Below the pieces are notes generated by a model. It saw only the letters and a list, made by a program, of their open reading frames with translations, ran no database searches and had not been told where the DNA came from. A stretch of DNA of 64,000 nt from Halobacillus massiliensis (GTDB taxonomy: Bacteria > Bacillota > Bacilli > Bacillales > Halobacillaceae): NCBI RefSeq assembly GCF_900166625.1, contig NZ_LT800499.1, positions 2,769,361 through 2,833,360 on the forward strand, given 5' to 3'. A program made the translations under genes and the position numbers. This document shows, one piece after another, positions 37,396-63,756 of the stretch (within the stretch, counting starts at the first letter, position 1; the number at the start of each line of letters is the position of its first letter).

Positions 37396-38493
37396 TTATG
37401 AAAAGGTAGGAGCAGGAAATTCATCAATTTTCATACGAAGTAAACTATAAGGTTTTTGTCGCAGGTCTTTTCCATAATGAAATCTTGCCTGCCGATGTAA
37501 TTGGTTCACAATAACATACAAATATTGGTCCGGACCAATTGAAAAAGTATCCGGCCACAAAATTCTCGGGTCATGTGCAATTGTTTCCATTATGCCATTC
37601 GGCAATATCTTACGGATACTGTTATTTTCATAATCTCCAGCATAAACGGTTCCTTTTGCATCTGTTATCATTCCATCAGAAGCCCCTTTTTCTCCCCAAT
37701 ACTCCACCTGATATAGTAAATCCATGTCCGATATCGTTCTGTCTCTTAGGGCTTCTGTTGAAATCGAGAACAGATGACGACTGGTAAGTGGGCAGAAAAA
37801 TAAATTTTCTCCATCGGGAGAAATCGCTACACCATCAGATGCCAATCTAAAAGGAGATGTTGAGCCATCTTTGTTTCGGTTCATCAAAATTTCACCTTCT
37901 ACTTTCGGTAAAATATAAGGATCGGGAGAAGTTGAATTTGCTCCATTTAATCGTCTAAATGCGATTCCATTTTCTAAATCTACAACGATAATAGCTCCTG
38001 GTCCTTTGGAAGATGAATCGGTTATATATGCATAACCCGCATTTCCAACACGAAAATCAAATCGGACATCATTCAGGTAAGTAGTGGGGAGGACAACATC
38101 TTCTGTGAAGGTATATACTCTTCTAATTGTATTGGTTTTTAAATCAACAGCGACTAATTTTGCCCCACCTTTTATGGGTTCAGAAAAATTGGGTGCCGCT
38201 GTATCTAATACCCAAAGTGTTCCCCTGCCATCGGTAACTACACTTTGGACACTGATGAAAGACATTGTGATATTCCCTGGGTCAATCAAATTGGTTTCGT
38301 AACTAGGATAAGGTCGCAATTGATCCCCAACAATTTCGGCAACCGTAAATTTTACATCGTCGCCCCATTTTGGAAAGCAAATGAAAATACGACCGTTTTC
38401 TGACACACTAACACCTGTAGGCATTGCCCCATTAAATGCATAAATCAGTTCTAACTTACCGAAATATTTCTCCATAGGTAACATTGGTTCCAT
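37396..38493 (-). CDS. Major royal jelly protein (MRJP/Yellow) family protein
   Basis: A 365-residue beta-propeller-type protein: PTGVSVSENGRIFICFPKWGDD near 26, LWVLDTAAPNF near 93, GYAYITDSSSKGPGAIIVVDL near 155, GVAISPDGENLFFCPLTSRHL near 220 and a C-terminal YVIVNQLHR. These are the repeated Yellow/MRJP blocks. No signal peptide is visible, so it is probably cytoplasmic. Bacterial members may act as lactonase-like enzymes, but function is unproved. ATG 38493 follows GGTGAGGTGG. Confidence 0.85.
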   Translation of the reverse strand: MEPMLPMEKYFGKLELIYAFNGAMPTGVSVSENGRIFICFPKWGDDVKFTVAEIVGDQLRPYPSYETNLIDPGNITMSFISVQSVVTDGRGTLWVLDTAAPNFSEPIKGGAKLVAVDLKTNTIRRVYTFTEDVVLPTTYLNDVRFDFRVGNAGYAYITDSSSKGPGAIIVVDLENGIAFRRLNGANSTSPDPYILPKVEGEILMNRNKDGSTSPFRLASDGVAISPDGENLFFCPLTSRHLFSISTEALRDRTISDMDLLYQVEYWGEKGASDGMITDAKGTVYAGDYENNSIRKILPNGIMETIAHDPRILWPDTFSIGPDQYLYVIVNQLHRQARFHYGKDLRQKPYSLLRMKIDEFPAPTFS

Positions 38494-39285
38494 AATATCC
38501 ACCTCACCAATTTCGTACTGGATATCACTATATATGATTAGAATTTTTTCTAGTGCCTGGTTCTTACGGTGTATTCATACTAAACGAGAAAAATGGAATA
38601 AAACAACCATGATAGTGAATCGAAGGAACGAACGTATCAAGCACATTACCATTTTTATTTGACTGTTTTTACTAAAACGTCAGGAGAATGTATTTTATCA
38701 CTAACCTCCTCTAGGGAATTAATAAGTAAGCTAGCCCCGTCGATTAATATCTGGAAAGGCAATACCGTTAGCTTTGGTTAATATTAGTTTGTCATAAACC
38801 ACCAACATACAACTGAAAATCGTTAATAATAAGACTCTTTGAAAAATATATTACTAAACTACTCTTAGCATAATAAGTGATAGCCAATGTACAGTTATTG
38901 CCCCCGATTGCTTAATAAGAGGATTGAGGTGCCGCCCATACCCTTTTTGACAAGAATAGCTATCAATAGAAAATGAAATCCCTTATATACTAGACTTACC
39001 AGCTAACCAAGATACTTTTTTGATAAATAATACATGGATGGACATGAGTATTCTTCAGTTAAAATCCAGTAATTGAATTAAGCTGATTGTAAAGAACTTA
39101 AAAGGACTCCAATCATCGCTAATCCCGCAATAGTCCCGATTAAAACGGTTGGCACTCAGAAGTTCTATGAACTTATGAGCGTCCTCTTCCATATTCCGTT
39201 CATACCTCTGCTTGCGGACCAAAAAACCCTGAACTTTTTATGGGCTTGAGTCGACTCTTTGCGTTCTGAGCGCAAGATGGATGGA
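38494..39285. other. Intergenic region with duplicated, decayed segment
   Basis: About 790 bases without an intact gene. The right half contains the partial benE-linked duplication at 38931-39154. The left half (38640-38830) shows short broken reading frames on the minus strand that may be gene remnants. Confidence 0.6.
38931..39154 (-). pseudogene. Partial copy of benE gene and its 3' flank
   Basis: 38931-39078 matches 52731-52873 (downstream of benE) with small gaps. Directly after it 39080-39154 matches 53113-53187 (inside benE) with three or so mismatches over 75 bases. The intervening 240 bases present in the intact copy are missing here. Same orientation as the intact copy, so these are direct repeats about 13.8 kb apart. 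Confidence 0.75.
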
Positions 39286-52912: not shown

Positions 52913-54151
52913 TTAAGCAGTTTCTACTTGAGTGCCTGTACGTTTTCCACTGTCTTGTTTAACTGCATCAAAATCTTTCTTTTCTATAATTAAGGACACT
53001 AGAACACCGCCGACTAAAGCCCAGAATGGCGAACTGATGTCAAAGAAACTTACCCCAGACATACCTATTACAAGAGCAAAGAAGGAACCTATTTGAAACC
53101 TTGGATTAGAAAAAGCTGATTGTAAAGAACTTAAAAGAACTCCAATCATCGCTAATCCCGCAACAGTCCCGATTAAAACGGATGGCATAGCAGTGACAAA
53201 TGGTACAGCAACTCCTGCTAATAATCCAAATGTTGCAAAAAGCACACCATTCACCACAACAGAAGCATAGCGACTTTCCTTATCTTTTCCTGCTTCTTCA
53301 GAGGCACAAATAGCTGTCATTGGACCTGCAACATTGGCATTGTGTCCTCCGAAGAAGGAAGTAATTATTCCGCCGATACCACTGTAGATGGTCATAGCAT
53401 TAATCGGCGGCTTATAGTTCTGGGCAATCAATACCCCTGACGCTTGTGCATTCTCTGCACCTATTACCAGTAAGGCTAAGGGAATGGAAATCGAAAGGAT
53501 GGCATCAAGGCTGAATGAAGGTACTACAATACCAGGTACAATAAAGCTTGGTTCCATAGCGCCCAGTTGAAACTGGTTCATTGAACCTGCCAGAAGTACT
53601 GCGACCAAAAATGCTGTTAATATCGGAGGAACATGGGCAATAAATTTTGATGAAAGTAAATATACAAGGATGGCCGCTCCAGCGATCAAGGGAGCTTCTT
53701 CTACGGATGTAATCATGCCTGTTCCAAATTTGATCATTGCTCCTACTATCATTGCCATAACAATAGGAAGGGGGAGCCAATTCATAATCTTTCCTATTAA
53801 TCCACTTATACCTAAGACAAACACAATGAACCCCGATACAAGATAGGCTCCAGCTGCTTCATTCAAGGAGAAATGGGTTAGTGCGCCTGCTACAAGTACG
53901 GCGCCGGGAATAGAATATGCACCAGCAATTGGCTGCTTATATTTCAAAGATAGAATAATCCCAAGTAAACCACCGAAAAAATAGATGGCAAACAACCAAG
54001 AAATCATTTCACCTTGCGATAATCCTCCATTTTGAGCTCCACCTATAACAATTAAAGCTGGTCCCGTGCAACCAAAGATTGCTGCAAGTGTCCCGGCACT
54101 AAAGGTATTCACATTCAGATGCTTAAGTAGGTTGTTCTGTTTATTCTTCAA
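52913..54151 (-). CDS. BenE family permease
   Basis: A 412-residue transporter with about 12 helices. BenE blocks: FGCTGPALIVIGGAQNGGLSQGEMISWLFAIYF, YSIPGAVLVAGAL, LPLPIVMAMIVGAMIKFG and FFGGHNANVAGPMTAICASEEAG. BenE moves benzoate with H+ in proteobacteria. Here it ends an operon with CoA ligase and molybdenum hydroxylase genes, so I infer uptake of the acid that the pathway degrades. Starts at TTG behind AAGGTGG. A broken partial copy lies 14 kb away. Confidence 0.88.
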   Translation of the reverse strand: MKNKQNNLLKHLNVNTFSAGTLAAIFGCTGPALIVIGGAQNGGLSQGEMISWLFAIYFFGGLLGIILSLKYKQPIAGAYSIPGAVLVAGALTHFSLNEAAGAYLVSGFIVFVLGISGLIGKIMNWLPLPIVMAMIVGAMIKFGTGMITSVEEAPLIAGAAILVYLLSSKFIAHVPPILTAFLVAVLLAGSMNQFQLGAMEPSFIVPGIVVPSFSLDAILSISIPLALLVIGAENAQASGVLIAQNYKPPINAMTIYSGIGGIITSFFGGHNANVAGPMTAICASEEAGKDKESRYASVVVNGVLFATFGLLAGVAVPFVTAMPSVLIGTVAGLAMIGVLLSSLQSAFSNPRFQIGSFFALVIGMSGVSFFDISSPFWALVGGVLVSLIIEKKDFDAVKQDSGKRTGTQVETA

Positions 54152-54235
54152 CAGCCACTACCACCTTTTTGGAAATTCAGAGTTTATCTATTTTAATAGA
54201 CTGGCTCCTATAAGGGATGCCCTTGCAGGCCACCC

Positions 54236-55024
54236 TTATCTTCCTATAAATTGCGGCTTTCTTTTTTCCACGAAAGCCTCTACGCCTTCTTTAAAATCTT
54301 CAGTTCCCCTTAGCATTCCATATGCTCGACCTTCAATTTGCAACCCTGTACTTAACGGACCTTCTTCTGCAGCATTTAATACTTCTTTACATACACGTTG
54401 AGCCAATGGTGAGAAGCGAGTAAGGTCCTTAGCCACACTTGCTACCTCTACTTCTAATCGACTCTTTTCTACTACTTGAGTGAGCAACCCCCATTGATAA
54501 GCTTCATGAGCAGGAATTCTTCTGGCTCGCATAATCATGTCTTTCGCTCTAGTCAATCCAACAGCCCGTGCTACCCGTTGAGTACCACCGCTTCCCGGTA
54601 TCATCCCTAAATTCATTTCAGGCAATGCTAACAACGTATCCTCTGCAGCAATCCGAAAATCACAAGCCATAGCGATTTCAAAACCTACCCCGAATGTATA
54701 TCCCTGCAATTGAGCAATTACCGGTTTCGAAGAACGTTCAGGAGCTGCTACATTCTCCGCCAAGTGGGATAATTCTTCCGGATGAGCTTCCATAAACTGC
54801 GGAATGCTCCCCCCAGCACTAAAAGCTTGATCACCTTCTCCTTTAATAACGATTACCTGTACATTTTCATCTGTATTTAAATCATCGAAAATTCCAGAAA
54901 ATTGAGATCGTGCGATCATGCTGATATAGTTCATTTTTTCTGGTCGATCAAAAACAATAGTCGCAATTTTGTCCTCCCTGTTTTTTTCTACTCGAATGTG
55001 ATCATATCTTGTATTCATTGTCAT
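54236..55024 (-). CDS. Enoyl-CoA hydratase/isomerase family protein
   Basis: A 262-residue crotonase-fold enzyme. Oxyanion-hole residues in FSAGGSIPQF near 68 and the next GYTFGVGFEIAMACD near 108 (Glu in position 1 of the catalytic pair), with the second Glu in ALPEMNLGMIPGSGG near 133. Both catalytic glutamates of the hydratase branch are present. In 2-furoate catabolism a protein of this family (HmfE) cleaves the CoA thioester after ring hydroxylation. The order in the operon, after ligase and hydroxylase, fits that step. Confidence 0.85.
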   Translation of the reverse strand: MTMNTRYDHIRVEKNREDKIATIVFDRPEKMNYISMIARSQFSGIFDDLNTDENVQVIVIKGEGDQAFSAGGSIPQFMEAHPEELSHLAENVAAPERSSKPVIAQLQGYTFGVGFEIAMACDFRIAAEDTLLALPEMNLGMIPGSGGTQRVARAVGLTRAKDMIMRARRIPAHEAYQWGLLTQVVEKSRLEVEVASVAKDLTRFSPLAQRVCKEVLNAAEEGPLSTGLQIEGRAYGMLRGTEDFKEGVEAFVEKRKPQFIGR

Positions 55025-55048
55025 ATTTATTTTCTCCCTTCTATTTTC

Positions 55049-56605
55049 TTAATGGACTACCTGTTCATCGTTAAATAATTCAAATTCCCCTTCACGTAAT
55101 TTTCTGCGAAGGATCTTTCCTACTGGACTTTTTGGTATTTCTTTAATGAAAATATAGTTTCTAGGACGCTTAAAATTAGATAACTTCGGATTGTTTTTAC
55201 AGTATTCATCCAACCCCTGAATAGTAAGTGATGAATCAGAAGGTACTACATAAGCCGTTACGATCTGGCCCCAACGATTATCCTCTTCTCCGACGATAGC
55301 AACTTCTGAAACTTTAGGGTTTTTCGTTAACACATCCTCCACTTCTAACGGGTGAATATTTTCTCCACCCGAGATGATCATATCGTCTACTCTACCTACT
55401 ACGTGCAAATCTCCATCTGCATCTATATAACCTAGATCACCAGTAAAATACCAGCCATCACGAATCGATTTTTTTGTAGCATCCGGTCGATTCCAATACC
55501 CTTTAAAAGCTTCACTGGAATCTAGGTTCGCAATAATTTCACCGACCTCTTCCTTGTTCACTATATCCGTGTTACTGGCCCCCCCATTGGGGTCAGCAGT
55601 CACTATACGTATATTTTGATGGAACCCAGGTTTACCAGCGCAACCAGGTTTTTCTCTTACATTTGGATTAATTGTGAATGTGTATACTTCCGTGCTTCCA
55701 TAATGATTAACGAAAACCTCAGGTTTAAAGTATTTTACACATTTTTCTGTCAGGGCAGTTGTCATAGACGCCCCAGCATATCCTAATTTCTTTAAAGAAG
55801 CCAGATCGTATTTCTCAAAATGAGGATGGTTCAACATATCATGGTACAGGGTTGGAACTAGATATAAACATGTAAGCTGTTCCTCACTTAACAATTTGAG
55901 CGCATCTTTAGCATCAAAATCGGGAAGTATCACATACTTACCATTGACAAAGGCGATTGATAAGAGCGACCTCATCCCCATCGTGTGATAAAGAGGCATC
56001 GTTCCAAGAGTGCTTTCACCTACGGTATAATGGTTTTGTATAATGTGAGCGGTAGCAGACGCATATTCATTTTTATTACTTCTCGGAACTCCCTTCGGCT
56101 TGCCGGTCGTTCCTGAGGTATAGAGCATAAGGGCTATGTCATCGTCCTGAATGGTTGGTTGTTCGTAGCTACCTGGACTTCTTTCTACTAACTCCTTGAA
56201 ATAAATATCTGCCCCTTCTACGTCATGTACGCCTATCAAAATAGGCCGTTCTTTAAAGTCTGCATTCAGGACAGCTTCCTGACTGACATCTTCATAGACG
56301 ATTGCGGACGCTTCTGCATCGTTCACGCAATACTCTACTTCCTTGTCCGATAATCGAAAGTTAATAGGAGTATAAATAGCACCAAGCTTCTGCAAAGCCC
56401 AATAGGTAAGCACATTTTCCAAATGGTTTTTTAATATAACGATTACCCGGTCTTGTTGCTTGACCCCTACCCGTTGCAAAGAGGCAGCCACTTGAGACAC
56501 CTTAGAATCCAACTGAGAATAGGTCAAGCGAATATCACCTTGGACTACCGCTGTCTTATTCGGGTGCCTTTCTACTGCAAACTCTAGTAACTTTGCAATA
56601 TTCAT
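55049..56605 (-). CDS. Acyl-CoA synthetase (AMP-forming)
   Basis: A 518-residue ANL ligase that activates a carboxylic acid as its CoA ester. LMLYTSGTTGKPKGVP (P-loop near 160), HYGSTEVYTF near 296, GWYFTGDLGYID near 395, RVDDMIISGGENIHP and PKSPVGKILRRKLR (catalytic Lys near the end) are all present. ATGA overlaps the stop of the 2Fe-2S subunit gene, with AAAGGAG eight bases upstream. Homologous position to the 2-furoyl-CoA synthetase HmfD. The pocket cannot be read by eye, so the acid is inferred from context. Confidence 0.88.
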   Translation of the reverse strand: MNIAKLLEFAVERHPNKTAVVQGDIRLTYSQLDSKVSQVAASLQRVGVKQQDRVIVILKNHLENVLTYWALQKLGAIYTPINFRLSDKEVEYCVNDAEASAIVYEDVSQEAVLNADFKERPILIGVHDVEGADIYFKELVERSPGSYEQPTIQDDDIALMLYTSGTTGKPKGVPRSNKNEYASATAHIIQNHYTVGESTLGTMPLYHTMGMRSLLSIAFVNGKYVILPDFDAKDALKLLSEEQLTCLYLVPTLYHDMLNHPHFEKYDLASLKKLGYAGASMTTALTEKCVKYFKPEVFVNHYGSTEVYTFTINPNVREKPGCAGKPGFHQNIRIVTADPNGGASNTDIVNKEEVGEIIANLDSSEAFKGYWNRPDATKKSIRDGWYFTGDLGYIDADGDLHVVGRVDDMIISGGENIHPLEVEDVLTKNPKVSEVAIVGEEDNRWGQIVTAYVVPSDSSLTIQGLDEYCKNNPKLSNFKRPRNYIFIKEIPKSPVGKILRRKLREGEFELFNDEQVVH

Positions 56606-57102
56606 GTGTTCAACTCCTTTACGGACTTTTTGTTTTCTTCCATAGTCTTCTCTACAGCTTTTACTATGCCATCGTAGCCTGTACACCTGCATAAATGACC
56701 TGACAGCATCTCTTTAATTTCCTGACTGTCTGCTTCAGGTTTTTTTTCGATAAAGTCAGTGGCTGCCATGAGTATCCCTGATGTGCAAAAACCACATTGT
56801 AATCCGTGATTTTCCTTGAAGTTTTTCTGCAGAGTCGTTAATTCGCCGGTATGTGCGAGTCCTTCTACCGTACGTATATTCCTGCCATCTGACTGTACCG
56901 CGAAAATTAAGCAACTTCTAACTGCAGCATCATCTAATACAATCGTGCAAGCTCCACACACCCCATGTTCGCAGCCTACATGCGTACCAGTTAGTCCGCA
57001 TACCTCTCTCAAAAAGTCACTTAAGAGCATTCTAGGTTCCACCATTTCCTGATATCTAGTGCCATTGATAGTGACCTCAATTTCTTGCACCGCCAAATTC
57101 AT
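56602..57102 (-). CDS. Molybdenum hydroxylase 2Fe-2S subunit (CoxS type)
   Basis: A 166-residue electron-transfer subunit with two 2Fe-2S clusters: CEHGVCGACTIVLD plus SCLIFA for the plant-type cluster, and CGFCTSGILM with HLCRCTGYDGI for the second. Carries electrons from the Mo centre to FAD. The ATG overlaps the FAD subunit stop by one base (TGATG). Homologue of HmfC if the furoate reading is right. Confidence 0.93.
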   Translation of the reverse strand: MNLAVQEIEVTINGTRYQEMVEPRMLLSDFLREVCGLTGTHVGCEHGVCGACTIVLDDAAVRSCLIFAVQSDGRNIRTVEGLAHTGELTTLQKNFKENHGLQCGFCTSGILMAATDFIEKKPEADSQEIKEMLSGHLCRCTGYDGIVKAVEKTMEENKKSVKELNT

Positions 57103-57971
57103 CACCCTCTCGCTCTTTCGTATGCCTGACGTAATGTACGTGAAGTCAGCACTTTAGCTAGATGCCGTCGATACTCTTCAGAGGCATGGAGGTCTGATTC
57201 GGGTTCCACACTCTCCCCTACTATTTCTGCTAGTTGTTCGATTAGTCCATCCGTCAACTGCTCTCCGCAGAGCACTGTTTGGGCGTCTTCTATTAGAAAA
57301 GGAATAGCTTCTACACCACCCAGAGCTAAACGGATATTTCCGATTCTGCCCTCCTCGTCAACGGCCATCTGACACGAAGCAGCCACCAACGCAAAATCCC
57401 CATGTCGACGGGCAATCTCCATAAATGAATGGCCTGTTTTCCCTTCCCAGACAGGAATATGGATTTCAGTTAGTATCTCCGTCGGCATTAAATCAGTAGT
57501 AAGGTAGGTAAGAAAAAAGTCTTCGGCATCAACGACTCGTTCTTCATCTTCTGAAGAAATCTTCACTTTCCCACCAAGTGTCATCAGCACAAGTGGGAGC
57601 TCTGCACTCGGGTCAGCATGGACGATACTCCCACCAATCGTGCCTCGATTCCTTGTTTGTAGATGTCCAATAAGTGGGACTGCTTCTTTTAGTAAAGGAA
57701 TGTTCTGCCCTACTACATCAGAAGCCTCTACCTGGCTTTGTCGTGTCATAGCGCCTATTTTGACTAAAAAGTCTTTACACTCAATGAAGTCAAGGTCAGT
57801 TAATCCGTTGATATCGATTAGACACTCAGGGGTTGCCAGGCGCATATTCATTATTGGTACGAGACTTTGTCCACCAGCTATTATCTTTCCTTCAAATCCA
57901 GCTTCATCTAAAAGTCTTAGTGCATCAGGAAGGTTATCTGGCCGGTGATACTCGAACTTGGCTGGTTTCAT
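57102..57971 (-). CDS. Molybdenum hydroxylase FAD subunit (CoxM type)
   Basis: A 289-residue FAD-binding subunit. FEYHRPDNLPDALRLL at the start, the FAD motif IAGGQSLVPIMNMRLA near 32 and TRNRGTIGGSIVHADPSAELP near 105 are characteristic of CoxM/XdhB. It lacks the extra 4Fe-4S insertion of 4-hydroxybenzoyl-CoA reductases, so an oxidising hydroxylase is favoured over a reductase. ATG 57971 has AAAGGAGG seven bases upstream. Homologue of HmfB under the furoate reading. Confidence 0.93.
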   Translation of the reverse strand: MKPAKFEYHRPDNLPDALRLLDEAGFEGKIIAGGQSLVPIMNMRLATPECLIDINGLTDLDFIECKDFLVKIGAMTRQSQVEASDVVGQNIPLLKEAVPLIGHLQTRNRGTIGGSIVHADPSAELPLVLMTLGGKVKISSEDEERVVDAEDFFLTYLTTDLMPTEILTEIHIPVWEGKTGHSFMEIARRHGDFALVAASCQMAVDEEGRIGNIRLALGGVEAIPFLIEDAQTVLCGEQLTDGLIEQLAEIVGESVEPESDLHASEEYRRHLAKVLTSRTLRQAYERARG

Positions 57972-57990
57972 CACTCAACCTCCTTTCCAT

Positions 57991-58449
57991 TCAAGTATGC
58001 TGCTTTGTGTTTTCCAGCTCTTTTTTAAATTTCTTAAAGAAGTCCTGAATAATCATTTTTGCAACACCACCGAGCATCCGCTGACCTATCATGGCGACTT
58101 TCCCACCAACTTCTGCATCGTAAGTATACTTAAGTGTAGTTTCGGTCTCATCCTCGGCTACTAGGTCTATGTTACCCACGGCTTCTACTGTCCCAGGACC
58201 TCCTTCCCCTTTTACGATCAATTTGTAGTGCTTAGGCTTGTCTAAATCTGCCAGCTCTATAGTGGAGGAATATCTCCCTTTAACTGCAGCAATACCCATT
58301 GCCAGCTCTGCTTCATATTTATTTTCTTCAATCTGTTCCAGCTTTTCACAACCCATAATGCATTTCTCAAGTACATTTGGATCCATTAATACTTCCCATG
58401 ATCTTTCAATCCCAGCATTCAAACTCAATTTTCCTTTTCCTTCCATCAT
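57991..58449 (-). CDS. CoxG-like SRPBCC protein
   Basis: A 152-residue SRPBCC-fold protein: EGKGKLSLNAGIERSWEVLMDPNVLEKCIMGCEKLEQ at the start, DAEVGGKVAMIGQRMLGGVAKMII near the end. CoxG in carbon monoxide oxidisers anchors the enzyme to the membrane and similar proteins accompany many Mo hydroxylases. The ATGA overlap with the large subunit gene shows coupled translation. No catalytic role proposed. Confidence 0.88.
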   Translation of the reverse strand: MMEGKGKLSLNAGIERSWEVLMDPNVLEKCIMGCEKLEQIEENKYEAELAMGIAAVKGRYSSTIELADLDKPKHYKLIVKGEGGPGTVEAVGNIDLVAEDETETTLKYTYDAEVGGKVAMIGQRMLGGVAKMIIQDFFKKFKKELENTKQHT

Positions 58450-60878
58450 GCATTCACCTCTTTTTGTTTTTGATAAATATCTGACTCTGCTAAAAGACTC
58501 CATATATAATTTGGACTTAAAGGAAGCGTGTCAATTTCAATAATATAAGGAGACAATGCGTCACTAACCGCATTGGCAACAGCTACAGGAGCACTCATCG
58601 TATTGCCTTCCCCAAGCCCTTTGGCTCCAAGGGGAGTGAGCGGTGAAGGAGTCTCCATGTGCTTTATCGTTACTTTTGGCATTTCCGGGGCAGTCGGGCA
58701 AAGGTAATCCATAAAAGATCCTGTTAAAAATTGCCCTTTTGCGTCATAGGCTAATTCTTCATACAAGGCGCCACCCAGCCCATGAGCAAGACCGCCGTAT
58801 ATTTGTCCATCTACAATTTTAGGGTTTAATAATTTCCCTGCATCATGGATGGTCACATAATCGATAATCTCTACATTTGCTGTTTCCGGGTCAATTTCTA
58901 CCGTTACCAGGTCGGAGACAAATCCATAGGTCACTGAAGAATTGATTAAATCCTGTTCATCAGGCGGTTCAGTGTTTTTAGCTGTATAATAATAAGTTTC
59001 ATAGATACCTGGTTCCATTCCTTCTGGCAGAGCCAGAGGATTCCAATGTGCTGTACCGACAGCACGCTTTAATGAATATTTCTGTTCCGGATTGTCTTTG
59101 ACAAATATACTTCCTTCTTTTAATTCCAATTCACTAGCTTCCACCTGCAGCTGATGGGCCGCTATTTTAAAAAGTTTAGATTTCACCTTGTGGGCTGCAT
59201 AAAATACTGCACTGGATCCTAGGGATGCGAATCTACTGGAATAACTTCCTGATGCAATCGACCAGGCGCTGGTTGAAGTGTCTAATTCCGCCACTACATT
59301 GACTTTATCCATCGGAACACCCAGTACATCAGCTATTATTTGGGCTGCCACTGTTTCATGACCTTGACCGGATGGAGTAGTGCTGATTCTCACATTGACG
59401 CTGCCCGTCGGATCCATAGATACGGTTGCCGCTTCGGCACACCCGGATTTAGGGAGGGAAGAAGCTCTTTCCTCGGGAGTTAAAGCCACCGTAATGTATC
59501 CCATGTTTGAACCTGAAGGCTCCACGATGTTCGCAAGTCCTACACCGAAAATTTTCCCTTTCTTTCTTGCCTCTTGCTGCTTTCTTCTAAACTCTGTATA
59601 GTTGCCAGTTTCAATCGCGAGTTCAAATCCCTTTTCATAATCTCCGCTATCATACATACCTCCGGAAGCAGTCTTATAAGGAAACTGATGCTTCTTGATT
59701 ATGTTTTCTCTAATGACATCTGCTGGGTCCATATCAAGTTCATTTGCAACTCGCTGCATCAGCCTTTCTAATGGAAAATAAAGCTCTTGACCGCCATATC
59801 CTCTTATAAGTCCGGTCGGCAACTTATTAGTCATGGTTGCAATTGCTTCAATATGGAGATTAGGAATATCATAAGCTCCAGTAGAATTAGCATGCGTCCT
59901 ATATAAACAAGCAGGCTCAGGCGCTCGTATATATGCGCCAACATTGTCTATCATTTTCATCCTTAGGCCTGTTACCTTGCCGCTTTTCTGTACCGCAGCC
60001 TCTATATAAGTAACTCGGTCTGTTCCGCTGGAGCTTGCTGATAAATGCTCTTGCCGATCTTCAATCCACTTTACTGGACAACCAGCAATACGACTGGCGA
60101 TGGCTAACAGAACCATGTATGGAAATGCCCCTGCTTTTATCCCATAGCTCCCCCCGATATCTTTAGGGACTACAATTCTTAGTTTGTTACCAGGGATACC
60201 TAATGCTTGTGCCATTACCGCCTGAATAACAAATGGCCCGTGAAAATTGGCATGTATGGTGTAACGGTCTTCGCTATTTTCATAGCTTGCCAGGATTCCA
60301 TATGTCTCTACAGGTGTTGCAGAGTATTTGGGGAAATTGTATTTATGCTTGATTATATGGTCAGCTTGCTCGAACGCCTGATTGACCTCCCCGTAATCGA
60401 AAGTCCGATGATTTGCTATGTTGGAACCCACATTTTCATGGAGTAACGGGGCATCAGGTTCCAAGGACTTTTCGATGTCGACAATCGGCTTGCGTCCTTC
60501 GTATTTCACTTTTATTTTCTCCATCGCATCTTCAGCAATGTATCGATTTTTAGCTAATACTACTGCTACAGGCTCTCCAACATAACGAACCTTTTCCACA
60601 GCAACCGGGTAATATTTCACGGGAGCGCTTACACCAACACTAAAAGGTTTCATATACTGTTTGATTTGCTCACCCGTGATGACTGCTTTCACACCCGTTA
60701 CCTTTTCAGCTTCTGACGTGTCGATTGAAATAATATCCGCATGAGGATATGTACTTCTCAAAATAGCAGCCTGAGCTGTATTGGGTGGTGTTCCAATATC
60801 ATCCATGTACTTTCCCTGACCGGTTAATAAGCGATCATCTTCTACTCGATTGACAGGAGCACCTATTGATTGAGTCAT
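58446..60878 (-). CDS. Molybdenum hydroxylase large (catalytic) subunit
   Basis: An 810-residue Mo-MCD (cytosine dinucleotide) subunit of the xanthine dehydrogenase/CO dehydrogenase family. VNRVEDDRLLTGQGKYMDD opens the protein; GGSYGIKAGAFP near 250, PTGLIRGYGGQE near 355, PSGQGHETVAAQ near 500 and the catalytic Glu in PLGAKGLGEGNTM near 755. The loop is IRGYGGQE, unlike the AYxCSFR of true CO dehydrogenase and the AYRGAGR of form II. AGGAGG is seven bases before ATG 60878, and the start overlaps the MocA stop. Likely hydroxylates a CoA-bound aromatic ring (HmfA-like). Substrate inferred. Confidence 0.9.
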   Translation of the reverse strand: MTQSIGAPVNRVEDDRLLTGQGKYMDDIGTPPNTAQAAILRSTYPHADIISIDTSEAEKVTGVKAVITGEQIKQYMKPFSVGVSAPVKYYPVAVEKVRYVGEPVAVVLAKNRYIAEDAMEKIKVKYEGRKPIVDIEKSLEPDAPLLHENVGSNIANHRTFDYGEVNQAFEQADHIIKHKYNFPKYSATPVETYGILASYENSEDRYTIHANFHGPFVIQAVMAQALGIPGNKLRIVVPKDIGGSYGIKAGAFPYMVLLAIASRIAGCPVKWIEDRQEHLSASSSGTDRVTYIEAAVQKSGKVTGLRMKMIDNVGAYIRAPEPACLYRTHANSTGAYDIPNLHIEAIATMTNKLPTGLIRGYGGQELYFPLERLMQRVANELDMDPADVIRENIIKKHQFPYKTASGGMYDSGDYEKGFELAIETGNYTEFRRKQQEARKKGKIFGVGLANIVEPSGSNMGYITVALTPEERASSLPKSGCAEAATVSMDPTGSVNVRISTTPSGQGHETVAAQIIADVLGVPMDKVNVVAELDTSTSAWSIASGSYSSRFASLGSSAVFYAAHKVKSKLFKIAAHQLQVEASELELKEGSIFVKDNPEQKYSLKRAVGTAHWNPLALPEGMEPGIYETYYYTAKNTEPPDEQDLINSSVTYGFVSDLVTVEIDPETANVEIIDYVTIHDAGKLLNPKIVDGQIYGGLAHGLGGALYEELAYDAKGQFLTGSFMDYLCPTAPEMPKVTIKHMETPSPLTPLGAKGLGEGNTMSAPVAVANAVSDALSPYIIEIDTLPLSPNYIWSLLAESDIYQKQKEVNA

Positions 60879-61522
60879 GAACAAACCTCCTCACTCAACA
60901 CTTTTTCATAATCACCTTTTGTATCGATATCAAAAAGGTGATTTGTACTCATCTCTACTAACTCAACTTGCTGATTATATTTTTTAATAACTGATCTTCC
61001 ACCTTCATCGCCGGACACGCTGAATAATTCACCAAATAGCTCTCTATGGAACAACACTGGGTGTCCCCTGACACCAAAAGAAGTTGATTGATAGATGGAA
61101 GAGTTCCTCGTCTTTTTATATCTTTCAATTACTTTATTTATTTCGCGTTCTGTTATATAAGGTTGATCCCCAAGGAGGAATAAAGCAGCCTCTGCATGTT
61201 CGGGCAGTGTTGTCAATCCTGCTTGTACGGAAGTTGATAACCCTCTATTCGCTCTGCTGTTCAAGATCACTTTACGAACACCAGGGATTCTTGCTTCATT
61301 GACCAGACCCGCCACATCCGGGTTTACTACTACTACTACTTCATCCAGAGTGGAGTTGATTGCCTGCTCAATGACTGAACGAACCAATGTCTTTCCCCTG
61401 AAAGGTAGAAGCATCTTCGGAGCGTCCATACGAGAAGACAAACCTGCAGCTAAAACAATTCCCCAGACTTCCCTTTTTTTCAGGTTGTCAATGATGCTTC
61501 CTCCTCTCTTTTTTGCTCCCAT
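60875..61522 (-). CDS. Molybdenum cofactor cytidylyltransferase (MocA type)
   Basis: A 215-residue nucleotidyltransferase that adds CMP to molybdopterin, giving the MCD cofactor needed by the large subunit. GIVLAAGLSSRMDAPKMLLPFRGK (near 21-44) is the NTP-binding start, followed by LFLLGDQPYITERE near 112 and FGVRGHPVLFHRELF near 150. ATG 61522 has AAAGGGG eight bases upstream and lies 43 bases inside the XdhC gene. Confidence 0.9.
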   Translation of the reverse strand: MGAKKRGGSIIDNLKKREVWGIVLAAGLSSRMDAPKMLLPFRGKTLVRSVIEQAINSTLDEVVVVVNPDVAGLVNEARIPGVRKVILNSRANRGLSTSVQAGLTTLPEHAEAALFLLGDQPYITEREINKVIERYKKTRNSSIYQSTSFGVRGHPVLFHRELFGELFSVSGDEGGRSVIKKYNQQVELVEMSTNHLFDIDTKGDYEKVLSEEVCS

Positions 61523-62592
61523 ATATAAGGCCCCTTTGTCATCTTAAGTGAGATACCATTACCTCCGCGATGAACATTGATCATCTCAGTAACAATGCTA
61601 CAGGAAATTTCTTCCGGAGTTTTTGCCCCAATATCAAGCCCTATAGGACTATAAAAATTAATCAGTTCTTGTTGTGAAATGCCTTTGGCATTGGATATTC
61701 CTTCGAGTAGCTGGTAGGTACGTTTCCTTGGACCCAAGATCCCGATATAACCTGTTTTTGCTCTCAACAGCTCATTCAATATTTGCTGGTCTTGTTCAAA
61801 ATGGTGGGTCATTATGACGATGAACGAGTACTCGTTCAATGTTATTTCAGGAAAGGTCCCTCTTTCGTTCAAGAATAGGTCATCCGCATCAGGAAAATGT
61901 GCGTCACTAACAAACGCTGGACGATGATCAATGACAGAAACTCGCCAATTCAATCGTTTCACTCCATCAACAAGCGGCACAGCGTCAGGTCCTGCCCCAA
62001 ACACAATGACATGAGGAGGAGGGGTAACGAAATCGAAAAAGACCTCTAACTCCTCACCCTTATAAAGACCTGTTTCATTATGCTTTAAACGTTTACTGTA
62101 CTCATCCCTAATTCGCTCATCATTTATCTCATTAAGGCTTTCGTCTTCCTCAATGATTATTCGTTTTTTCTTAGTTGATACAGAATATTCTGAGGAAATA
62201 ATGGTAAGCAGGCATATTGAATTATTTAACGCTCGAGATAAACCCTCTTCCATTTCGATAGATGAAGAGCACATAGGGTAAAACGGTTCTAGATATAATT
62301 CAATCGAACCGTTACAGCCAATCCCTAATCCCCATAAATCATCTCCTCCATCTCTGAAATCATAAAATACTTTCTTAGATTTTCCAGTCTCCATAACGTG
62401 TTTGGCGTATTCACCTAGGTCTCCTTCCACACAACCTCCGCTTACAAGTCCAGTTACAATACCATCTTCACTAATAAAACATTTTGCTCCAGCTTTTTGA
62501 TAAGTAGATCCTTCAGTTCGAATGATAGTACCCAAAACCCCTATCTTCATTAGGGAACGACATCGTTTCATTTCTTTATAAATCGGAAGCAT
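61480..62592 (-). CDS. XdhC/CoxI family Mo-cofactor maturation protein
   Basis: A 370-residue protein that in relatives binds the molybdenum cofactor, promotes its sulfuration and hands it to the apo-enzyme. N-terminal XdhC_CoxI block IRTEGSTYQKAGAKCFISEDG and GLVSGGCVEGDL near 50, then HVIVFGAGPDAVPLV (NAD-like Rossmann motif) near 195, DHRPAFVSDAHFPDA, and GYIGILGPRKRTYQLL near 290. Overlaps MocA, so the two maturation genes are translated together. Confidence 0.9.
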   Translation of the reverse strand: MLPIYKEMKRCRSLMKIGVLGTIIRTEGSTYQKAGAKCFISEDGIVTGLVSGGCVEGDLGEYAKHVMETGKSKKVFYDFRDGGDDLWGLGIGCNGSIELYLEPFYPMCSSSIEMEEGLSRALNNSICLLTIISSEYSVSTKKKRIIIEEDESLNEINDERIRDEYSKRLKHNETGLYKGEELEVFFDFVTPPPHVIVFGAGPDAVPLVDGVKRLNWRVSVIDHRPAFVSDAHFPDADDLFLNERGTFPEITLNEYSFIVIMTHHFEQDQQILNELLRAKTGYIGILGPRKRTYQLLEGISNAKGISQQELINFYSPIGLDIGAKTPEEISCSIVTEMINVHRGGNGISLKMTKGPYIWEQKREEEASLTT

Positions 62593-62605
62593 ATGCTATC
62601 TCCCT

Positions 62606-63382
62606 TCAAGCTTTAATAGTTCGTGATTCATTTTTCCAATAGAATTGATCACGGTATTCACTAGGTGTGACCCCCACATGCTTTTTAAATGTTGTGGCAA
62701 AATATCCTGCAGTCGTAAATCCCGTATTATTAGCAATAACTTCTATTGGAAGGGATGACAGCCGGAGCGTTGTCTTTGCTTTTTGCATTCTGACAAAAGC
62801 TAGATATTCGACAAAACTTTTCCCCGTCTCATCTTTAAACATCCTACTAAAATAAGAGGGACTCAAATATACCTGATTGGAAACATTTTTTAATGTAAGT
62901 GATTCGCTATAACGCTCCTGAATAATATGAATAGCACTCTCAATAGGTTTACTTAAATCAGATACAATCCCACCTTTCCCTCTGTTCATGAAATTGTTTA
63001 TCTGCTTACTCAGCTCGGGAGTCAATACCCGTTCAAAGGTTTCGACTAAATTATCTTTAGAAAGCGTTTTCAGTAAATAAGCGGAAAATCCTGCATTGAT
63101 AGCATCCTGTACGAGACTAAACATTTTTAAGTGAGTCACTACAACCACCGGTAAATCTGGATACATTTCCAAAGCAGTTCGTCCCAATTTAATACCATCC
63201 ATGTCCGGCAAAGATAAATCAACAACCATACAACTAGGCTTATTTTGTTTTAATAGAAACAAAGCGCGATCAGCCGTACTTGATTCATAGACAGAAAGAA
63301 AGTTATACTTACTGGCTTGAATAATCTGACAGAACTCTTGCCGACTCTGTTTATCATTATCCACAAGCAACACTTCAGCCAA
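62606..63382 (-). CDS. Response regulator with REC and AraC-type DNA-binding domains
   Basis: A 258-residue YesN-like regulator. REC domain with phosphoacceptor Asp in VVDLSLPDMDG (near 55), Thr in VVVVTHLKMF and Lys in LLKTLSKD; the acidic pocket is DND rather than the usual DD pair near residue 8. C-terminal HTH_18: LSPSYFSRMFKDETGKSF and YFATTFKKHVGVTPSEYR. Starts at TTG 63382 behind AGGAGG. It opens the operon 13 bases before xdhC-like. No histidine kinase is in the window, so it may be orphaned, respond to another kinase or lie next to one outside. Confidence 0.9.
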   Translation of the reverse strand: MAEVLLVDNDKQSRQEFCQIIQASKYNFLSVYESSTADRALFLLKQNKPSCMVVDLSLPDMDGIKLGRTALEMYPDLPVVVVTHLKMFSLVQDAINAGFSAYLLKTLSKDNLVETFERVLTPELSKQINNFMNRGKGGIVSDLSKPIESAIHIIQERYSESLTLKNVSNQVYLSPSYFSRMFKDETGKSFVEYLAFVRMQKAKTTLRLSSLPIEVIANNTGFTTAGYFATTFKKHVGVTPSEYRDQFYWKNESRTIKA

Positions 63383-63430
63383 ATTGAGTTCCTCCTCACT
63401 TAAAAAGTCTAACGAAGATTTTCTAGCTGT

Positions 63431-63535
63431 TGTTTTAAAATTTTGTAATTAACTTTTTATATTTTTGTCTTATTAGAATTTTCTGATTATAAACTAGCAT
63501 ATAAGAGATCTTTATGACTCTGTTTTAAAATTTTG
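63431..63535. repeat. Two 15-bp direct repeats upstream of regulator gene
   Basis: TGTTTTAAAATTTTG occurs at 63431-63445 and again at 63521-63535, 90 bases apart, 50-150 bases upstream of the operon's first start codon. The spacing and identity would suit a binding site for the REC-AraC protein, but AT-rich sequence makes chance matches possible. Confidence 0.35.
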
Positions 63536-63756
63536 CTTTTACCTGTTTAATATATTTCTCTAAATGAAACCCCTGACCTTTTAATATTTCATAAAAATTA
63601 AATCGGTATAAGAGGGAGTAGGGAGAAGAACAATATTTACGCTTACTAGACGCGATTGTAAGTGAACTCAAGCTGTGCTTAGAGTTTTTAGGCCTTACCT
63701 CAATATATTTGCGTCATAAAAACCCTTTAGTTAGTACGAGCACTAAGGGAGATAAC

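Follow-up and report, generated by a model that had tools for sequence, protein, structure and literature searches.

A putative furoate-catabolic operon of the hmfABCDE type in Halobacillus massiliensis

Gene content and organization of the locus

The window analysed here, a continuous stretch of 64,000 nucleotides from Halobacillus massiliensis, harbours ten open reading frames that were confirmed at positions 52913-63382, all on the minus strand. Pfam and NCBIfam profiles identify a BenE permease, a crotonase, an AMP-binding ligase, 2Fe-2S and FAD subunits, CoxG, a molybdenum (Mo) subunit, an NTP transferase, XdhC and a receiver-AraC protein, in agreement with the identities that a first-pass annotation had given to all ten. 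In transcription order, the genes are separated by 13, -43, -4, -1, 16, -4, -4, 24 and 84 bases; eight of the nine adjacent pairs overlap or lie no more than 24 bases apart, and only the BenE gene stands apart. Because of these measured gaps, the ‘ATGA/TGATG’ couplings that had been described for ten same-strand genes are considered real, the positions of the reading frames also agreeing with that description.

The core genes run A-B-C-D-E on a single strand, coxG lying between the first two; the corresponding order (large, FAD and FeS subunits, ligase, crotonase) is common to the window, Cupriavidus, Paraburkholderia, Dinoroseobacter, Paracoccus and Azospirillum. No structured RNAs or tRNAs were reported in the window, and a promoter scan returned 30 sites against 28.4 expected, so that no promoter was assigned from it. 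The operon looks to have been recently transferred, a reading based on its DNA identity of 93-95%, as compared with 79-81% around rpoB.

The molybdenum hydroxylase

The Mo-binding large subunit (810 residues, 58446..60878, minus strand) is HmfA-like (2-furoyl-CoA dehydrogenase) on the basis of its placement in a tree of 51 rows (from 56, after the removal of two partial, one over-long and two second-copy rows), where it lies inside a single clade of 29 rows that includes proteobacterial and haloarchaeal loci (SH-aLRT 100); one CoxL and one XdhA fall outside this clade, and the tree was flagged for long branches (outgroup). Twenty-five bacterial rows of hmf type share 35 invariant positions that the 10 outgroups lack, in a comparison that omitted the Priestia row, and Glu757 in a ‘GxGE’ motif is conserved. 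Against five HmfA-type proteins the large subunit scores 781-815 BLAST bits, a scale that differs from the phmmer bits given below.

The FAD-binding subunit (HmfB-like; 290 residues, 57102..57974, minus strand; PF00941, PF03450) contains four scattered cysteines (51, 66, 201 and 236); because of this length and cysteine pattern an HcrB-type 4Fe-4S insertion is considered absent, as had been noted at first pass. The 2x[2Fe-2S] subunit (HmfC-like) is encoded at 56602..57105 on the minus strand (PF00111, PF01799). Neither small subunit could be used as a family marker, as the identity ranges fail to discriminate hmf loci from outgroups: 37-43% to proteobacterial hmf loci and 34-42% to outgroups for the FAD subunit, and 52-59% and 41-56%, respectively, for the FeS subunit.

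CoxG (57991..58446, minus strand; PF06240) is 30-38% identical to residues about 820-990 of all five proteobacterial HmfA proteins measured; judged by this similarity, the separate gene corresponds to the C-terminal domain that is fused to HmfA in proteobacteria. That domain is absent from the large subunit in the window, and the fusion was not taken as a requirement for hmf assignment.

Two further genes encode putative cofactor functions: a maturation factor of the XdhC/CoxI family (61480..62592, minus strand; PF02625, PF13478) and a MocA-like nucleotidyltransferase (60875..61522, minus strand; TIGR03310), MocA being the closest NTP transferase. Both names are given at the family level only because the scores lie under the curated cut-offs (191 bits against 350 for XdhC with NF045664, and 171 against 186 for MocA with TIGR03310); the MocA-like protein is probably a molybdopterin cytidylyltransferase. 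The listed mocA start at 61522 creates a 43-base overlap with xdhC, and the true start may lie downstream. A mocA match was not found in the 11 proteobacterial and haloarchaeal loci compared, and the gene does look particular to the Bacillota among these loci.

Ligase, crotonase and permease

The acyl-CoA ligase (55049..56605, minus strand) is HmfD-like (2-furoyl-CoA synthetase) by tree and identity. Its start is given as 56692 in the list of reading frames, and the overlap-coupled ATG at 56605 is the likely true start. In a tree of 37 rows (two duplicates having been removed from 39), 31 rows comprising this protein and hmf-locus ligases group together (SH-aLRT 98), while the six rows outside, most of them long-branched, are E. 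coli CaiC, a partial MenE and four others. The ligase is 46-49% identical to eight proteobacterial hmf-locus ligases.

The crotonase-family protein (54236..55024, minus strand) is HmfE-like (2-oxoglutaryl-CoA hydrolase) by identity and motif: it is 49-52% identical to eight proteobacterial hmf-locus crotonases, and two glutamates (117 and 136) together with the motif ‘FGVG[FL]E’ are found in 27 of 27 crotonase rows, the motif occurring in none of five others. In a tree from which five of 37 rows were removed beforehand (four duplicates, one over-long) it groups with hmf-locus crotonases, with a support of 89 and very long outgroup branches. The relative L035 fell below the 70% coverage filter.

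The BenE-family permease (52913..54151, minus strand; TIGR00843, above cut-off) is likely a 2-furoate/H+ importer. Among the 25 plasmid matches listed, of 91 records, the nine best (49-59% identity) each have an hmf-type large subunit no more than 5 kb away; the remaining 16 reach at most 43%, and only two of those records are among the listed hmf records.

Regulator and candidate operator

The regulator (258 residues, 62606..63382, minus strand) combines a receiver domain with an AraC-type helix-turn-helix (PF00072, PF12833); it starts with TTG, preceded by GAGGAGG, and is likely the activator of the operon. The receiver aspartate is conserved in all 18 aligned Bacillota homologues; no histidine kinase for it was found among the neighbouring proteins scanned (sets of 10 and 4). 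An exact CAAAATTTTAAAACA occurs twice ahead of the regulator, 63 and 153 bases from its start (63431..63535, minus strand), and is a candidate operator. With up to two mismatches CAAAATTTTAAAACA precedes the regulator in nine of 17 relatives, as compared with a chance level of 0.27 on average and 2 at most (200 first-order Markov resamplings).

Relationship to known hmf systems

One of the closest known systems is the locus on pHTA426 of Geobacillus kaustophilus HTA426, which displays the same order as the window from regulator, XdhC, MocA, large subunit and CoxG through FAD subunit, FeS subunit, ligase and crotonase, and whose large subunit is 66% identical. That locus adds an HmfF-type UbiD, GkR2loxII, an MFS transporter and a second ligase, and its stretch contains no BenE match. 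G. kaustophilus is reportedly listed already among carriers of hmf-like genes, in Koopman 2010 or Wierckx 2011.

The name hmf is applied here to proteobacterial loci on the basis of gene order, neighbours and description rather than of HMF14 reference sequences. As described in PMC6678421, hmfABCDE of Cupriavidus basilensis HMF14 has the same five core functions as the window, which in contrast has a separate CoxG, mocA, BenE and a receiver-AraC regulator and no hmfFGH alongside. According to the same source, Pseudomonas pseudoalcaligenes (Ectopseudomonas oleovorans) CECT 5344, which uses furoic acid, carries hmfABCDE, benE, araC and a maturation-factor gene, all shared in kind with the window, and is described there as having no hmfH or hmfFG homologue; neither a receiver domain nor mocA is mentioned in that description (PMC6678421). 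The Paracoccus yeei pTT13-3 locus likewise has a helix-turn-helix regulator, hmfABCDE, BenE and XdhC; it differs in an HmfA-CoxG fusion, in a stretch with no mocA match and in the position of xdhC at the downstream end.

The proposal of the first-pass annotation that BenE and a different regulator are Gram-positive replacements is therefore overstated. BenE occurs in CECT 5344 and P. yeei, and the Pseudomonas hmf locus, as described in PMC6678421, already has both BenE and an AraC regulator, so that this combination is not new. The receiver half is another matter: against the 11 proteobacterial and haloarchaeal loci, the best matches of the regulator start at residue 89 or later, and this half does look particular to the Bacillota among the loci compared.

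A furan link through relatives

The UbiD protein beside the G. kaustophilus locus has its best match in 6h6v/6h6x (560 bits, the next family reaching 219), as does that beside the P. largidicola locus (430 versus 218 bits); these structures are named HmfF in PMC10176493. HmfF-type UbiD, a furandicarboxylate decarboxylase, is present at an identity of at least 63% in 10 of the 16 genomes searched. Neither HmfF nor another furan-specific gene was matched in the window's own genome, so that the substrate is argued from relatives, and the strain is expected to grow on 2-furoate, though not on furandicarboxylate through the HmfF route.

Full-length BenE is present in all six genomes without HmfF, directly after the crotonase, versus two of the ten with it, anywhere in the stretch (28/8008 = 0.0035, one-sided, computed by hand, ignoring relatedness, from a count made without a coverage filter). 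Among the HmfF carriers, the stretch gave no BenE match for seven, a Peribacillus locus has a BenE fragment after the crotonase (query residues 4-116, 45%), and in two Domibacillus loci a second crotonase copy is followed by two BenE genes (66% and 41%).

Proposed function and alternatives

Taken together, the clades of the large subunit, ligase and crotonase and the kept gene order support the 2-furoate degradation reading of the first-pass annotation: the locus is very probably an hmfABCDE-type furoate-catabolic operon and, as such, is a Gram-positive member of an already known pathway. As to substrate, reactions, transport and regulation, we infer that BenE would bring in 2-furoate, which the ligase (HmfD) would convert to 2-furoyl-CoA, and that the three-subunit Mo enzyme would place a water-derived oxygen on C5 to give 5-hydroxy-2-furoyl-CoA. 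This product would tautomerise to a lactone, opened spontaneously or by the crotonase (HmfE), which would then release 2-oxoglutarate from 2-oxoglutaryl-CoA. A dedicated lactone hydrolase is not present in the operon; a candidate, ‘hyd’, is described for GO16 (PMC12064950). XdhC and MocA would complete the Mo cofactor, CoxG would help or anchor the dehydrogenase, and the REC-AraC protein would turn the operon on.

That the large subunit might instead belong to a CO dehydrogenase, a xanthine/purine or nicotinate hydroxylase, or a 4-hydroxybenzoyl-CoA reductase is suggested by its closest solved relative, CO dehydrogenase (480 phmmer bits, against 432 for quinoline oxidoreductase, 257 for 4-hydroxybenzoyl-CoA reductase and 155 for nicotinate dehydrogenase), and by the presence of CoxG, XdhC and MocA beside other Mo hydroxylases (CoxG with XdhC in loci L050 and L075). 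This is nevertheless highly improbable. The curated cut-offs for CO dehydrogenase, xanthine dehydrogenase and HcrA are unreached (547 of 950, 521 of 991, 410 of 780 and 389 of 995 bits, the last three being those of the CO dehydrogenase profile TIGR02416, the xanthine dehydrogenase profile NF043082 and the HcrABC profile TIGR03194; a further xanthine dehydrogenase profile, NF007426, gives 398 of 916), and the cysteine loop of CO dehydrogenase is missing, ‘AYRCSFR’ in Afipia CoxL aligning to ‘PTGLIRGYGG’ in the window. Together with the length of the FAD subunit and the fully supported clade, these data reject the CO dehydrogenase, xanthine/purine and hydroxybenzoyl-CoA reductase identities; nicotinate dehydrogenase is rejected by score only. 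The grouping of large subunit and ligase with nicotinate, purine or hydroxybenzoate enzymes, named at first pass as what would refute the furoate reading, was not observed: the large-subunit tree, whose outgroups included a CoxL and an XdhA, and the ligase tree place the two proteins with those of hmf loci; HcrA and nicotinate enzymes were compared by score.

The same chemistry (a CoA thioester and C5 hydroxylation) acting on pyrrole-2-carboxylate or thiophene-2-carboxylate is unlikely. It would suit a genome without HmfF, and the distribution of BenE might mark a switch of substrate along with transporter; however, large subunits from HmfF-bearing loci are interspersed in the tree with those from loci lacking it, and they are 74-98% identical to that of the window, and CECT 5344, described as a furoate grower with benE and without hmfFG (PMC6678421), indicates that a BenE layout fits furoate. 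Benzoate or another six-ring aromatic acid is scarcely credible as the substrate, despite the family name of BenE and the best solved match of the ligase (4-chlorobenzoyl-CoA ligase, 274 bits), since the operon has no ring-cleaving or ring-reducing gene and the nine best plasmid matches of BenE among those listed all neighbour hmf-type large subunits.

Broader implications

For furoate catabolism, the comparison extends the enzyme family through the Bacillota into the haloarchaea. In plant-sugar hydrolysates, furans act as important inhibitors. A Gram-positive furoate operon that holds its transporter, its regulator and the cofactor factors in a single 10.5-kb block, and whose host presumably tolerates salt, would make a usable part.

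The role of the GkR2loxII-type subfamily of R2lox proteins has been left open (PMC10867098). It is possible, though this is put forward tentatively, that the operon is the central part of a furan-acid pathway of the Bacillota that also has an upper branch of its own, where GkR2loxII oxidises the furan side chain, and that the strain in the window is a reduced, furoate-only version. GkR2loxII would then hydroxylate or oxidise compounds such as 5-methyl-2-furoate or 5-hydroxymethyl-2-furoate en route to furandicarboxylate and furoate, and the subfamily would gain a physiological substrate.

As a separate observation, the GkR2loxII-type Mn/Fe oxidase and HmfF tend, with some exceptions, to occur together among the Bacillota that carry hmf genes; the oxidase is found in half or more of the surveyed carriers, mostly beside HmfF. 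This co-occurrence links it to furan metabolism and makes its open function directly testable.

Relationship to the furoate pathway

The operon is filed here as a member of the known hmf furoate pathway, with small structural differences. Within the genome collection, 34 loci match its HmfA-like large subunit, 15 of them (L002-L016, Bacillota throughout) at 74-98% and 19 at 34-38%; among plasmids, 975 records match, and the best 60 of these include 42 at 47-77% identity, the next standing at 38%. Among the matches listed, the plasmid set at 47-77% covers Cupriavidus, Paraburkholderia, Dinoroseobacter, Paracoccus, Azospirillum, Rhizobiaceae and haloarchaea. A 51-row large-subunit tree, for which the program flagged long outgroup branches, places all 29 higher-identity rows in one clade (SH-aLRT 100) that excludes Afipia carboxidovorans CoxL and E. 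coli XdhA; within it, 18 Bacillota rows group together (98), as do 8 proteobacterial rows (100), with both groups joined at 94 and three haloarchaeal rows falling outside them. HcrA and nicotinate dehydrogenase were compared with the large subunit by scores, outside the tree. The alignment contains 35 positions that are invariant in 25 bacterial hmf-type large subunits and absent in 10 outgroups.

The GxGE Glu of Mo hydroxylases (Glu757) is retained in the large subunit, and both Glu residues (117 and 136) in the crotonase. In the pathway as outlined in passages of two papers (PMC6678421, PMC12064950), 2-furoyl-CoA is formed by HmfD and then oxidised by HmfABC, with HmfE as the proposed 2-oxoglutaryl-CoA hydrolase; a passage of the latter also names a candidate lactone hydrolase (‘hyd’) in strain GO16. 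Since no dedicated lactone hydrolase is found among the operon’s ten genes, the lactone would open either spontaneously or through the crotonase. Of the neighbours scanned, a single protein is a lactonase-like candidate: it is encoded at window 37396-38502, more than 14 kb from the operon, and matches MRJP, with SMP-30/gluconolactonase-like families below the cut-off.

Association with HmfF and BenE

Furoate is proposed as the substrate on the evidence of related loci. Furandicarboxylate is converted to 2-furoic acid by HmfF/HmfG (excerpt of PMC6644310), and structures 6H6V/6H6X are the HmfF of Pelotomaculum thermopropionicum (excerpt of PMC10176493). Among solved structures, the UbiD encoded at the Geobacillus kaustophilus locus matches 6h6v at 560 bits and the runner-up family at 219; for the UbiD of P. 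largidicola, the same HmfF structures reach 430 bits and the next family 218. An HmfF-type UbiD (at least 63%) occurs in 10 of 16 genomes searched (that of the window and those of L002-L016), in one of the ten as two pieces; no match was found in the window’s own genome. In each of the six genomes that lack HmfF, the crotonase is followed by a full-length BenE gene; such a gene is present in the stretch of two of the ten that carry HmfF. A precedent for this layout is Pseudomonas pseudoalcaligenes CECT 5344, which uses furoic acid and, in the portion of PMC6678421 concerned, has benE and an AraC regulator with no hmfFG homologue. Among the best 25 of 91 plasmid matches to BenE, the top nine (49-59%) each lie within 5 kb of an hmf-type large subunit, and the remainder reach at most 43%.

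In Fictibacillus terranigra (G004; L063/L069), the match to the HmfF-type gene is split into two pieces that differ in reading frame; either the gene is broken in the strain or the assembly is in error. In Peribacillus cavernae, a BenE-like fragment (L016:16782-17120; query residues 4-116, 45%) between the crotonase and an MFS transporter is perhaps a relic of transporter replacement.

A GkR2loxII-type oxidase outside the window

On plasmid pHTA426 of G. kaustophilus HTA426, the gene for the Mn/Fe oxidase GkR2loxII (GKP26; L036:4471-5349) has HmfF on one side and the hmf operon on the other. Members of its subfamily are found in exactly the 10 of 16 genomes that hold HmfF, and by coordinates the two genes are at most about 1.5 kb apart in nine and on separate contigs in one. 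Among 397 genomes of the order, the oxidase is found in eight (E up to 1e-80), the large subunit in 15 and HmfF in nine; all eight oxidase genomes also carry the large subunit and HmfF, and the ninth HmfF genome has neither oxidase nor large subunit (Fisher p 4.5e-13 for oxidase with large subunit and 6e-16 with HmfF, relatedness being ignored). This co-occurrence may give a physiological setting to an enzyme whose function is open. A strict link to hmf is disfavoured, because among 348 genomes of the class (partly the same genomes), 14 hold the oxidase (E up to 1e-60), 13 the large subunit and nine both, leaving five oxidase genomes that lack a large subunit (identity 51-52% in three of them and 61-62% in two). 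PMC10867098 describes alkane oxidation by GkR2loxI (30% identical) and leaves the role of GKP26 open, so a role of alkane or lipid type is possible as well. No paper combining R2lox and furan appeared among the matches listed.

Gene order and operon layout

In proteobacterial loci the order is large, FAD, FeS, ligase and crotonase; in 12 of 17 Bacillota loci it is regulator, XdhC, MocA, large, CoxG, FAD, FeS, ligase and crotonase. L013 keeps the Bacillota order, complete except for a MocA match, and the remaining four (L010, L011, L015 and L040) have rearranged or truncated layouts. The separate CoxG matches residues ~820-990 of proteobacterial HmfA (983-1016 aa) in all five measured (30-38%, E 9e-16 to 9e-29), so this small gene, placed between hmfA and hmfB, corresponds to an HmfA domain in proteobacteria. 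In the Bacillota loci L010 and L015, the operon has a crotonase gene on either side, the two copies being nearly identical, which suggests duplication and rearrangement; the upstream copy lies behind CoxG and ligase genes and, in L015, is followed by two BenE genes.

The operon occupies window positions 52913-63382 on the minus strand (ORF calls and family profiles), and the profile-search assignments agree with the family names that the first-pass annotation gave its ten ORFs. Eight of nine neighbouring gene pairs overlap or lie at most 24 bases apart, and the BenE gene stands 84 bases from the rest. A terminator-like hairpin of 15 pairs (63797-63762, a consensus match only) separates the operon from a sugar-type upstream operon (LacI-like regulator, periplasmic binding protein, xylose-isomerase-like and Gfo/Idh-type proteins). 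This locus is the single match to the large subunit in the 4.3-Mb genome, where moaA scores over the cut-off elsewhere. The receiver Asp is retained in all 18 regulators aligned. Before the regulator gene lies an exact 15-base direct repeat, CAAAATTTTAAAACA (window 63431-63535), found with up to two mismatches in nine of 17 relatives, which are not independent, versus 0.27 expected. A 75-base stretch (window 39080-39154), in which the scans reported neither a tRNA nor an Rfam family, matches L014 (Halobacillus sp. Marseille-P3879; 96%) and L012 (87%) near the downstream end of their operons.

Probable recent transfer and haloarchaeal relatives

The module has probably moved recently. Homology to Thalassobacillus devorans spans 52955-63589 at 93.0% DNA identity, with short pieces only beyond it, and Halobacillus sp. 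Marseille-P3879 is 95.0% identical across the operon and 92.6% across the upstream operon; the corresponding values for rpoB stretches are 79% (main piece) and 81%. The large subunit was found at high identity in two of 11 genus genomes searched.

Among the literature matches listed, with primary hmf papers outside the search, there was no account of hmf genes in Bacillaceae, Firmicutes or haloarchaea; one such primary paper reportedly includes G. kaustophilus in its list of carriers. Three haloarchaeal plasmids (L044, L045 and L046) encode an hmf-type large subunit, BenE, two AMP ligases, a PaaI-type thioesterase and a DUF6282 protein, with no crotonase match in the stretch searched, and possibly represent an archaeal furoate pathway in which other enzymes hydrolyse the lactone and the thioester.
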